NCBI RefSeq assembly: GCF_024347455.1
Contig: NZ_AP025483.1
Location: 620,001 to 684,000, forward strand
Direction: 5' to 3'
Source: Vibrio echinoideorum
GTDB taxonomy: Bacteria > Pseudomonadota > Gammaproteobacteria > Enterobacterales > Vibrionaceae
DNA length: 64,000 bases
In this document: one piece after another, positions 14,170-33,550 of the stretch
Numbering within the stretch: position 1 is the stretch's first letter
How the letters are laid out: each line of letters opens with the position of its first letter
The notes under the pieces: generated by a model
Database searches by the model: none
What the model was told of the DNA's origin: nothing
The model's input: the letters and a program-made list of their open reading frames with translations, nothing else
Made by a program: the position numbers and the translations under genes

Positions 14170-15357
14170 ATGGCGAGTATTGAAGCTGCACTAGCCGAGA
14201 TCAAACGTGGCGTAGAAGAACTAATTCCAGAAGACGAACTGATTGCTAAATTAAAAGAAGGTCGTCCTTTACGCATTAAGCTGGGTGCCGATCCAACTGC
14301 TCCAGATATCCACCTAGGCCATACGGTTATCTTTAACAAGCTTCGTGCTTTCCAAGAGCTTGGTCATGAAGTGACATTCCTTATTGGTGATTTCACTGCA
14401 ATGGTTGGTGATCCATCAGGTAAGAACTCAACACGCCCGCCGCTAAGCCGTGAAGACGTATTGAAGAATGCTGAAACTTACAAAGAACAAGTATTCAAAA
14501 TTTTAGACCCTGCGAAAACTCAAATTCGTTTCAACTCTGAGTGGCTATCTGAGCTTGGTGCTGAAGGCATGATTCGTCTTGCTTCTAACCAAACAGTTGC
14601 TCGTATGCTTGAGCGTGATGACTTTAAAAAGCGTTACGCTGGTGGTCAACCGATCGCAATCCACGAATTCATGTACCCACTTCTTCAAGGCCACGACTCT
14701 GTTGCACTAGAGAGTGATGTAGAGCTGGGCGGTACTGACCAGAAGTTTAACCTTCTAATGGGTCGTGAACTGCAAAAAGCAGCAGGTCAAAAGCCACAAG
14801 CGGTACTAATGATGCCACTACTTGTTGGTCTAGACGGCGTTAAGAAGATGTCTAAGTCTGCGCATAACTACATTGGTATCAGCGAAGCACCAAGCGAGAT
14901 GTTTGGTAAGATCATGTCTATTTCTGATGATCTAATGTGGAGCTACTACGAGCTACTGTCTTTCCGTCCACTTGAAGAAGTTGCGGAACTGAAAGCTGGC
15001 GTTGAGGCGGGCAAAAACCCTCGTGACGTTAAAGTACTTTTAGCTAAAGAAATCATTGCTCGTTTCCACAGTGAAGCAGATGCTGAAGCTGCTGAGCAAG
15101 AGTTCGTTAACCGTTTTGCTAAGAATCAAGTACCAGACGAAATGCCTGAATTCGAGTTCGAAGCAGGCCTGCCAATTGCCAACGTTCTAAAAGAAGCGGG
15201 TCTAGTAAACTCTACTTCTGATGCGATGCGTATGATCAAGCAAGGTGCGGCTAAGCTTGAAGGCGAAAAAATTGAAGACAGCAAATTCGTACCTGAAGCA
15301 GGTACTGCGGTTTACCAAGTTGGTAAACGTAAGTTTGCTCGTATCACTATCAAATAA
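14170..15357 (+). CDS. tyrS: Tyrosyl-tRNA synthetase (TyrZ/short type)
   Basis: A 395-residue class-I synthetase that charges tRNA-Tyr. The HIGH motif variant is HLGH at residues 48-51 and KMSKS is at 226-230. A C-terminal S4 RNA-binding domain (about 330-395) contains [17 protein letters not shown]. At 395 residues it belongs to the shorter TyrRZ-like group rather than the 424-residue E. coli TyrS. It follows GGGAG at a good distance and ends in a strong terminator. Codon use is of the highly expressed type, with many CGT/GGT/AAC codons. Confidence 0.95.
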
Positions 15358-15418: not shown

Positions 15419-15516
15419 ATTGCCCCCTATTTATTGACAGAAAGTTGACGAAGTTTTTGAACGTGCATTGCTACACTATGCGCGCTGTCATATTGACAGT
15501 AATTCTGGAGATTTTT

Positions 15517-15561
15517 ATGAACAATACCGACCATCCTCCTAGTTTGAATGGAGAAGAATAA
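15517..15561 (+). CDS. Putative leader peptide MNNTDHPPSLNGEE
   Basis: A 14-codon ORF with its own strong Shine-Dalgarno (TCTGGAGA, about 6 nt before the ATG). It contains Asp-His-Pro-Pro and ends Glu-Glu before TAA. Short upstream ORFs rich in Pro and acidic residues control Mg2+ transporter genes in enterobacteria: MgtL works through ribosome stalling or destabilisation at low Mg2+. The similarity here is of logic and composition, not sequence, so the role is an inference. Its codons 2-5 pair with sequence just after the stop, so ribosome position would change leader folding. Confidence 0.45.
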   Translation: MNNTDHPPSLNGEE

Positions 15562-15585
15562 CCCGTCTCGGTATTGATCTATTGT

Positions 15586-15616
15586 CCTGCCGTTCGGGTA
15601 GGGTATCTTTGTTTTT
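15586..15616 (+). terminator. Terminator-like attenuator hairpin in the mgtE leader
   Basis: CCTGCC (15586-15591) pairs with GGTAGG (15597-15602, one G-U) around GTTCG, then TATCTTTGTTTTT. The stem is short but GC-rich and has a U-rich tail. It sits 25 nt after the leader ORF stop and about 135 nt before the transporter start. Confidence 0.5.
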
Positions 15617-15751
15617 CCCCCTCATTCTTTTCCACACACTAGATTCTAACAAATAGACACACCAGTAGCTTCAGCTCTTGGTGCGCATAAATCTATAAAC
15701 TTATGCTATTTGTTTTGATGGTCGTTACCTTTGCCAATCGGGAGATTCGCC

Positions 15752-16597
15752 ATGACGGTAATGAACAACACTTTTTTATCTATTGAAGCTCTATACTCAG
15801 ATCAAGACATCCAAGCTGTATCGAATGCATTTCAACAGTACGGACGTGAGCAACAAATTAACCTTTTGAACCGCATGCCGCTTGAAGATGCGGTGCTAGT
15901 ACTTGGGCAATGTTCTCTTAGTACGATTCAGACTTTACTTAGTGAGTTAGAGGTGCAGGGTTTTGAGAAGCGCTCTCGACATCTAGCTCACCAACTAGGG
16001 CTGATCTACTCAGAGGTTGAACCTCAACAGGGTTACCTTTCAACAGGGGTAATGAGTCATGTTAGGCAGCGTATCGGTTGGATTATTGCCTTAGCGCTGT
16101 TGGGTATTGTCTCTGGGCTTATCATTGCTCAGTATGAAGACATTCTTAGTCAGCTAGTACTTCTGGCGATCTATATGCCGGTGATCGCTGCTGCGGGTGG
16201 CAATACAGGAACACAAGCTGCGACTTTGGTCATTCGGGCCTTAGCCACAGGCGAGTTGAAGAAACGCCAGTGGGCCAACGTTCTATGGAAAGAGCTTAGA
16301 GTCGCGATTTGCTTAGCACTTGCGATTGCCTTGGTGATGATAGGCCGCATCTTACTGTTCAGTGACAACCAATCAACGGGTGGTTACGACATTAATATGA
16401 TTGCTTACGCGATTGCTGTCGCTCTGTTTATTCAAGTGACAATATCAACCGTGCTTGGCGCTGGATTGCCGATTGTTGCTCGGTTATTCAAGTTAGATCC
16501 TGCGGTGCTGGTGAGCCCTGTACTGGCTTCAATTGTCGATATTTCAGGGATGTGGATTTACTTTACGGTAGTGAATTCATTCTTGGGTATTGCTTAA
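15752..16597 (+). CDS. Short MgtE-type Mg2+ transporter lacking CBS domains
   Basis: 281 residues from ATG at 15752, which follows CGGGAG at a good distance; a TTG 21 nt upstream is less likely. Residues 1-75 resemble a shortened MgtE N-terminal helical domain. The five membrane spans of the MgtE channel domain follow directly, including the signature YMPVIAAAGGNTGTQAATL and the TM5 Asp in SPVLASIVDISGMWIYF. Full MgtE proteins are about 450 residues, with a tandem CBS pair that binds Mg2+ and gates the pore. That pair is absent here, so gating by the usual Mg2+ sensor is not possible. Substrate Mg2+ (or another divalent cation) is inferred from family. The preceding leader may supply control instead. 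Confidence 0.85.
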   Translation: MTVMNNTFLSIEALYSDQDIQAVSNAFQQYGREQQINLLNRMPLEDAVLVLGQCSLSTIQTLLSELEVQGFEKRSRHLAHQLGLIYSEVEPQQGYLSTGVMSHVRQRIGWIIALALLGIVSGLIIAQYEDILSQLVLLAIYMPVIAAAGGNTGTQAATLVIRALATGELKKRQWANVLWKELRVAICLALAIALVMIGRILLFSDNQSTGGYDINMIAYAIAVALFIQVTISTVLGAGLPIVARLFKLDPAVLVSPVLASIVDISGMWIYFTVVNSFLGIA

Positions 16598-26421: not shown

Positions 26422-26506
26422 GCCGAGATGGTGAAATTGGTAGACACGCTAGCATGAGGTGCTAGTGCCTTAGGGTGTGAGGGTTCGAGTCCCTCTCTCG
26501 GCACCA
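26422..26506 (+). tRNA. leuU: tRNA-Leu (anticodon GAG)
   Basis: An 85-nt class-II tRNA with encoded CCA. The acceptor GCCGAGA pairs with TCTCGGC. The anticodon stem CTAGC/GCTAG encloses loop ATGAGGT, giving anticodon GAG. There is a long variable arm (TGCCTTAGGGTG) and a T arm with GGTTCGAGTCC. It follows secG as in E. coli (leuU). Confidence 0.96.
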
Positions 26507-26559: not shown

Positions 26560-26636
<77 letters not shown>

Positions 26637-26752
26637 ATTTCAATGCTATTATATAGCTTGTATTGGTAGCAAGTTTGCACAGTGTGAACCTCACTGTGAG
26701 TTAAGTGTGATATCCAATGTGATGGCACTTAACATATAAGGGTCCAGCAACA

Positions 26753-26779
26753 AAAACCCCGGTTTATACGGGGTTTTTT
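26753..26779 (+). terminator. Terminator after the initiator tRNA
   Basis: AAAACCCCG (26753-26761) pairs with CGGGGTTTT (26769-26777), then TT. It sits 117 nt after the tRNA and 92 nt before rimP. Upstream of it are hairpins CACAGTG/CACTGTG (about 26679-26698) and GTTAAGTG/CACTTAAC (26700-26733). Confidence 0.8.
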
Positions 26780-26833
26780 GTTATCTAAGCATTTGTAAAT
26801 GCGTTTAGATAATGTTTGCTTGGAATTTAAATT

Positions 26834-26853
26834 GGGCTTTGAGCCCTTTTTTT
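26834..26853 (+). terminator. Second terminator-like hairpin just before rimP
   Basis: GGGCT (26834-26838) and AGCCC (26842-26846) close a 3-nt loop and run into seven Ts, ending 18 nt before the rimP ATG. The short stem suggests partial termination or attenuation of rimP-nusA. Confidence 0.6.
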
Positions 26854-33207: not shown

Positions 33208-33218
33208 CCTCGGCTCGC

Positions 33219-33274
33219 GTAGCGGCTGAATCAGAGATTGGCTGCTACAAATATAAACTTACTCTTATCAGGAG
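33219..33274 (+). promoter_or_regulatory. rpsO leader hairpin, candidate S15 autoregulatory site
   Basis: GTAGCGGC (33219-33226) pairs with GCTGCTAC (33241-33248, one G-U). An inner AATC/GATT helix narrows the loop. The ribosome site CAGGAGAG follows. In several bacteria S15 binds structured rpsO leaders to repress its own translation. The fold here is read by eye. Confidence 0.45.
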
Positions 33275-33280
33275 AGATTT

Positions 33281-33550
33281 ATGTCTCTGAATGCAGAAAC
33301 TAAAGCAGCAATCGTTGCAGAATACGCACAATCTGAAGGCGACACAGGTTCACCAGAAGTACAAGTAGCACTACTTACTGCTTCTATCAACCACCTACAA
33401 GGTCACTTCAAAGCACACAAACACGATCACCACAGCCGTCGTGGTCTATTACGCATGGTTTCTAGCCGTCGTAAGCTTCTTGATTACTTGAAAGGCAAAA
33501 ACCTTACTCGTTACCAAGACCTAATCAAGCGTCTAGGCCTACGTCGCTAA
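33281..33550 (+). CDS. rpsO: 30S ribosomal protein S15
   Basis: 89 residues, the standard length. It has the conserved [19 protein letters not shown] and [20 protein letters not shown] regions that bind the 16S three-way junction near helix 22. It has its own consensus promoter and a leader hairpin, and is closed by a strong terminator. pnp follows 379 bp downstream. Codon use is highly biased, as for ribosomal proteins. Confidence 0.98.

Follow-up and report, generated by a model that had tools for sequence, protein, structure and literature searches.

A conserved leader ORF and its RNA pairings upstream of a short mgtE-like gene in Vibrionaceae: a candidate for control through leader translation

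Among the cis-acting RNAs found before Mg2+ transport genes, Rfam includes the Mg2+ riboswitch known as M-box/ykoK and a Mg sensor of mgtA. Other Mg2+ transporter leaders are controlled through a short upstream ORF. Translation of the 8-aa mgtQ of Salmonella frees the ribosome site of mgtB via alternative stem-loops, and its action needs Asp2 and Glu5 (PMC8092293). For MgtL, PMC11282234 describes an EPDP motif, ribosome drop-off at low Mg2+ and the involvement of Rho; CorL is presented in PMC11552253 as similar to MgtL in action.

We analyzed a window of 64,000 nucleotides from Vibrio echinoideorum, in which a preliminary description had proposed a 14-codon ORF with its own ribosome site in the leader of an MgtE-type gene. 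This ORF is indeed present: it occupies 15517-15561 on the + strand, from the ATG at 15517 to the TAA at 15559-15561, encodes the peptide MNNTDHPPSLNGEE and is preceded by GGAG (15507-15510) and a six-base gap. The gene on its 5' side (14170-15357) is presumably tyrS. The leader stretch 15478-15760 folds more stably than its shuffles (z -3.43; 1/200 shuffles as good). A putative promoter element, TGCTACACT, is seen at 15469..15477; a promoter consensus scan called no promoter on the + strand. No Rfam family matches over the leader at gathering score, and at E values up to 5 the search returns two minus-strand matches only, from unrelated families and far below gathering score. Elsewhere in the window, Rfam places an S15 leader (33218-33337), a rimP leader (26721-26853) and two tRNAs (26422-26503 and 26560-26633). 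In the open-licence PMC literature, no Vibrio mgtE leader is found among the matches listed.

The gene downstream encodes 281 aa and matches PF01769 MgtE alone in Pfam (E 4.2e-33; 114.7 bits for a gathering score of 27.6). The product aligns with residues 281-468 of the Thermus MgtE (2yvx), that is, with the membrane part only, and scores under the cut-off of the NCBIfam MgtE equivalog TIGR00400 (145.5 vs 232.75 bits). The cytoplasmic gating domains of MgtE are named N and CBS. These domains are described, in PMC8104411 and PMC5882242, as the route by which Mg2+ closes MgtE. A second, long MgtE is found elsewhere in the same 5.7 Mb genome, as an open frame of 454 aa that is 23% identical.

Loci fetched via the protein form a set of 102 (L033-L095, L126-L163 and L174, L126 being the window itself), which is redundant, as some species occur twice. 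Structural comparisons use a sequence-only alignment of 55 representatives, less than 90% alike and drawn from 125 distinct leaders, or a set of 58 obtained by adding L134, L136 and L164; L138 is excluded for want of a leader start. The features discussed below are as follows, all on the + strand and in order of position.

15469..15477, +: extended -10-like element TGCTACACT (TGnTAnnnT); TA and the final T are invariant in the 55 representatives
15485..15499, +: P0, 5' hairpin CTGTCA-TAT-TGACAG; 6/6 pairs with both-side changes
15507..15510, +: leader Shine-Dalgarno GGAG; columns at least 90% conserved in the alignment of 55 representatives
15517..15561, +: leader ORF MNNTDHPPSLNGEE, core M-x-x-x-D-x-P-P; present in 99/102 protein-found loci, Pro codons varying at third positions only
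15522..15530, +: P2, 5' strand, codons 2-5, CAATACCGA; partner 15568-15576; 1/9 pairs with both-side changes, and swap test
15528..15535, +: long-range helix, 5' strand, ORF bases CGACCATC, codons 4-7; 8/8 pairs in 48/58
15550..15559, +: P4, 5' strand, ORF end, GGAGAAGAAT; partner 15624-15633; swap test and run counts
15568..15576, +: P2, 3' strand, TCGGTATTG; partner 15522-15530; same basis as the 5' strand
15586..15602, +: P3, hairpin CCTGCC-GTTCG-GGTAGG; 5/6 pairs with both-side changes; terminator-like in this species
15624..15633, +: P4, 3' strand, pyrimidine-rich, ATTCTTTTCC; partner 15550-15559; swap test and run counts
15717..15724, +: long-range helix, 3' strand, GATGGTCG; 15 bases 5' of the mgtE Shine-Dalgarno
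15725..15729, +: P5 (candidate), 5' strand TTACC; partner GGTAA at 15757-15761; both near-invariant
15736..15747, +: mgtE ribosome-site hairpin AATC-GGGA-GATT, with the Shine-Dalgarno in a GNRA-type loop; near-invariant
15752..16597, +: short MgtE-like gene, 281 aa; membrane domain, with N/CBS gating domains not recognisable

Of the 102 loci fetched via the protein, 99 encode a leader peptide of the form M-x-x-x-Asp-x-Pro-Pro 5' of the short MgtE-like gene. This count demands ATG, A[AG][CT] at codon 2, GA[CT] at codon 5, a GGA ahead of the start codon and a match to the ribosome-site pattern of mgtE; Pro is not demanded in these loci. A protein-based scan of named genomes finds the leader in 62 of 63 loci, and a protein search of 40 other genomes of the family yields 30 loci, 28 of which have it; the strict filter is passed by 27 of the 30, and L160 has a leader whose ribosome site is weaker. 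Peptide length ranges from 11 to 19 aa. The leaderless loci among the 102 are L091, L138 and L139. L091 and L138 show no difference across the 600 bases that were compared: both have CTG in place of the leader's ATG, the partners GGTCGTTACC and GGTAATGA are missing as well, and the ribosome-site hairpin is retained. At L139, in a genome with two copies of the gene, neither the leader nor the ribosome-site motif was found by pattern.

At the DNA level, a strict pattern that needs the Pro codons was applied to 329 genomes of the family; 170 of them match, and these matches cover 6 of 13 genera. Pattern-negative genomes of the family include some without a visible short gene (best E about 1e-10 to 1e-30) and others with a diverged leader. 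The diverged leaders of L134-L136 read MSN[A/T]DNPPSSRGEK, in which Asp-x-Pro-Pro is retained and neighbouring bases are altered; the exact GATGGTCG partner is absent there despite the intact leader. Across the wider order, 25 genomes out of 394 contain a comparable pattern; 24 of these belong to the genus of the window, and the remaining one comes from a different family. In this last genome (L164 / L174), short mgtE and leader occur together with different upstream neighbours, which suggests a joint, horizontal transfer. A protein search of 80 genomes of other families, at a cut-off of E 1e-20, recovered the short gene from that one only; from 12 others it recovered relatives whose open frames span 428-462 aa. 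Ten other genomes of the L164 / L174 genus were searched: seven matched only through frames of 428-445 aa and three had no match.

The association with a transporter is looser in one genus, g10, where a pattern search finds the leader in 8/8 genomes. In seven of them (L102-L104 and L106-L109), which came via the pattern search and are outside the 102, the gene after the leader encodes 93-128 aa resembling the N-terminal part of the short MgtE, with no MgtE membrane domain; the sequence of L106 spans just 501 bases from the start codon. Six of these seven products consist of the N-terminal part followed by one hydrophobic stretch. The short-product loci keep the mgtE ribosome site as well as the leader, and in six genomes the product has a similar length of 126-128 aa, which hints that the gene has been kept and reshaped. 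L105, in the same genus, and Salinivibrio proteolyticus (L095) encode the full 281 aa. The leader can thus outlive the transporter domain, and the absence of the membrane domain in 7/8 g10 genomes weakens both a strict Mg2+-transporter leader and a Mg2+ cue. The leader is therefore not strictly that of a transporter.

The peptide itself is constrained. On an mgtE tree of 72 tips, picked without requiring Pro, the two Pro codons underwent at least 11 changes, every one at a third position, whereas the four first and second positions show no change. The form M-x-x-x-D-x-P-P is common to all 99 leaders, with Asp demanded by the search. Several leader patterns demand the Pro codons, so that Pro conservation in the sets obtained with them is partly by construction. 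The Pro-Pro pair that had been singled out beforehand is, from these third-position-only changes, selected at the peptide level. The Glu-Glu end, which had been likened to the acidic residues of MgtL, fares differently. The C-terminal GEE varies among leaders, being replaced by GEK, GVK, VENQ.., CKGSL, VAG and others; VAG ends occur in three loci, and in L053 and L088 this ending resembles a one-base deletion. We therefore ruled out this tail as an MgtL-like signal, and Asp5 is the sole conserved acidic residue.

Constraint at the RNA level is superimposed. Codons 2 (AAC, Asn2), 5 (GAC, Asp5) and 6 (CAT, His6) are identical in 62/62 loci of Vibrio and Salinivibrio; among the 17 comparable codons of the gene (two-fold-degenerate, with an invariant residue), not one is fixed in the same loci. 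Over the 125 distinct leaders, AAC is found 124 times, GAC 125 times and CAT 124 times. Amino acids at codons 3 and 4 vary (N, D, T or V, and T, I or N, respectively; diverged loci add S and A). The leader ORF is thus under two overlapping constraints, one on the peptide and one on the RNA.

The strongest pairing involves ORF bases and the region just 5' of the mgtE ribosome site. We searched a zone of about 110 bases 5' of the mgtE Shine-Dalgarno for partners of CGACCATC, with no preselection by pattern. A partner with 8/8 pairs (G-U allowed) is found in 48 of 58 representatives, for 0.43 expected from dinucleotide shuffles, and one with 7/8 pairs in 53 of 58, for 8.4 expected. In a reading of the 125 distinct leaders that picked the partner by pattern, GATGGTCG occurs in 101, all pairs are formed through G-U in 15, and 5-7 pairs are formed in 9. 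The minimum-energy fold of the window's leader contains this long-range helix, and in nested folds the mean pair probability of the helix exceeds 0.5 in 29/58 representatives (10/58 for P2). Own partners of this helix score -12.99 vs -12.75 when swapped (3/2000 permutations as good) and -8.5 when shuffled; the helix varies too little for compensation to be visible. Apart from some G-U variants, the mgtE ribosome-site hairpin is near-invariant across the 125 distinct leaders, and it persists where much of the leader has changed.

Local helices complete this picture. For P0, P2 and P3 taken together, with the structure drawn from the window's sequence, double-change cells number 95 vs 35.1 +/- 4.7 in shuffles and 21-34 in slid controls, and 85.5% of cells are paired vs 79.1% in shuffles and at most 45.5% in slid controls; the representatives are related, so shuffle and swap figures should not be taken as probabilities. 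The number of pairs having a double change, 12 vs 10.5 in shuffles, is unremarkable (86/500 shuffles reach it). Double changes are carried mostly by P0 and P3. P2 corresponds to the complementarity previously proposed between codons 2-5 and a segment past the stop, which is exact (CAATACCGA at 15522-15530, the reverse complement of TCGGTATTG at 15568-15576). Covariation in relatives, whose absence was to count against it, is seen at one of its nine pairs, the first base of codon 3, which forms A-U in 43 representatives, G-C in 8 and G-U in 4 and is never unpaired. Its duplex energy is -10.5 kcal/mol with own partners vs -9.2 with swapped ones, and 0/2000 permutations are as good. RNAalifold did not choose P2 on the alignment of 55 representatives.

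In P4, the ORF end pairs with a pyrimidine-rich segment, with -15.2 kcal/mol for own vs -13.2 for swapped partners (0/2000 permutations as good). An unbroken run of at least 9 pairs is found in 38/58 representatives vs 18.0 in shuffles, and one of at least 10 pairs in 31 vs 9.6. The sequence of P4 varies from clade to clade, and in some loci, for example L053, L079, L140, L146, L152, L162 and L164, the best duplex lies off the P4 site. A further pairing, P1, between the leader Shine-Dalgarno and a segment 3' of P2, is weak (-8.2 own vs -7.6 swapped, 1/2000). P5 gave no signal in a wide-segment swap test, in which 1004/2000 permutations were as good. By eye, L134 and L136 have a differently placed match of the TTTACT/AGTAAA type round the mgtE start, which is no more than suggestive and is absent from L135. 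The helix put forward in the preliminary description is thus upheld as P2, with some compensatory change, but the description was incomplete, missing P4 and the pairing of the ORF to the ribosome-site region. Neither of two outcomes named beforehand as counting against it, an unconserved ORF and a lack of covarying pairing in relatives, was observed.

From these comparisons the ORF is conserved, its Pro-Pro codons are under coding selection and its bases lie within conserved RNA pairings; what we infer is in which direction, on which cue and at which level the leader exerts control. The reading that we favor, for which confidence and doubt are evenly balanced, is that of a cis-acting leader controlling the short mgtE via the translated upstream ORF, chiefly at the mgtE ribosome site. 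With no ribosome on the ORF, CGACCAUC would pair with GAUGGUCG and close the mgtE start region, the mgtE Shine-Dalgarno already lying within its small hairpin inside the closed fold. A translating ribosome that slows or drops off at Asp-x-Pro-Pro would cover CGACCAUC, the helices would open and mgtE would be translated. The cue may be whatever slows the ribosome at Asp-x-Pro-Pro; low Mg2+ is a natural candidate because the gene is Mg2+-transporter-like, and EF-P or the supply of prolyl-tRNA are alternatives. That the strongest pairing joins the ORF to the region just 5' of the mgtE ribosome site argues for control of the mgtE start and not, or not only, of transcript length. In L091 and L138 the leader start and the partner bases were lost together, which is consistent with a closed fold doing harm once its opener is missing. 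The co-occurrence of gene and leader in a different neighbourhood (L164 / L174) likewise speaks for this reading, and the lack of the exact GATGGTCG in L134-L136 speaks against it. Nested folding, which cannot treat pseudoknots, predicts no switch: blocking the ORF changes the mean unpaired probability of the mgtE Shine-Dalgarno from 0.65 to 0.60 over the 58 representatives, with shifts above 0.05 upward in 10/58 and downward in 20/58, and the mean with an initiating ribosome is 0.68. Simulated ribosome occupancy was set aside as a predictor of the direction of control, having no consistent effect. We may also hypothesize, much more speculatively and as a decidedly unlikely case, that this Vibrionaceae MgtE-type protein without a cytoplasmic Mg2+ gate is gated at the RNA level: a Mg2+-stabilised long-range pseudoknot, made of P2, the ORF-to-ribosome-site helix and perhaps P5, would close the mgtE start, ribosome slowing at Asp-x-Pro-Pro in the pseudoknot loop would open it, and folding and nascent-chain pausing would jointly read Mg2+.

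Translation of the leader might instead set termination before mgtE, either intrinsic (P3 and its U-run) or Rho-dependent, the Rho site then being the C-rich, G-poor stretch 3' of P3. Attenuation of the MgtL/CorL kind is used by mgtA and corA in Salmonella and E. coli, as stated in PMC11552253 and PMC11282234. Here, a terminator-like site is found in the window and in 30/58 representatives, compared with 12/58 when shuffled, but it is missing in the other 28, so that P3 was rejected as a general, conserved intrinsic terminator. Similarly, C exceeds G in 56/58 post-P3 stretches, yet is more than twice as frequent in just 15/58. Attenuation also leaves the pairing to the mgtE ribosome-site region unexplained, and we regard it as possible but on the whole doubtful.

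The several conserved pairings, the variable amino acids at positions 3 and 4 and the fixed wobble positions of codons 2, 5 and 6 in 62/62 loci would all be expected of a structured RNA that senses Mg2+ or another ligand and in which the ORF is incidental. We find this unlikely: Pro-Pro codons vary at third positions only, the start, the Shine-Dalgarno and a nearby stop are all retained, the diverged L134-L136 hold Asp-x-Pro-Pro while adjacent bases change, and Rfam offers no plausible match. A protein or small RNA acting in trans on the invariant bases round the ORF or the mgtE ribosome site could account for the retention of GCTAATCGGGAGATTCGC in L091, L134-L136 and L138, where much else has changed. 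Such a factor is highly improbable, since the invariant leader bases have an equally conserved partner in cis and GCYAATCGGGAGATTCGC has a single exact occurrence in the window's genome, where looser sites may exist.

Control through the translated ORF can now be compared with the described systems. In all of MgtL, CorL and mgtQ, ORF bases and helices overlap; the bases of the present ORF likewise take part in P2, P4 and the long-range pairing. It may also be a translated upstream ORF of this class, with coding-type selection apparent on Pro-Pro before a PF01769 gene, the membrane domain being missing in 7/8 g10 genomes. As in MgtL of enterobacterial mgtA, a leader peptide with Pro and an acidic residue is encoded within overlapping helices (PMC11282234, PMC11552253). 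MgtL has EPDP and Rho-dependent termination, whereas here no such run is found, only Asp5 and Pro7-Pro8 being conserved, and one conserved acidic residue and Pro-Pro go with pairing to the ribosome-site region. The expectation that a peptide unlike MgtL in sequence would, if functional, be an independent solution is in keeping with this. As with CorL of corA, the ORF is short and embedded in RNA structure 5' of a Mg2+ transporter gene, but CorL is Rho-based and differs in transporter family and peptide (PMC11552253).

The parallel in logic is mgtQ. The present leader would share with it a very short ORF whose bases enter alternative helices, by which the ribosome site of the Mg2+ transporter gene is either exposed or masked, and peptide residues that disturb the ribosome. 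Unlike mgtQ, which has 8 aa and lies between two operon genes in the mgtC-mgtB intergenic region, the ORF described here has 11-19 aa and is the first after a promoter-like element; mgtQ needs Asp2 and Glu5, whereas here Asp-x-Pro-Pro is invariant and the gene is of the MgtE type. The present leader would share logic with these known systems, but differs from them in sequence, motif, gene type and position. If this is true, leader-peptide control would have been invented independently in another bacterial family and for another type of transporter. The same bases would then serve as peptide signal and long-range RNA contact, so that sensing by the RNA and by the ribosome should be separable by mutation.
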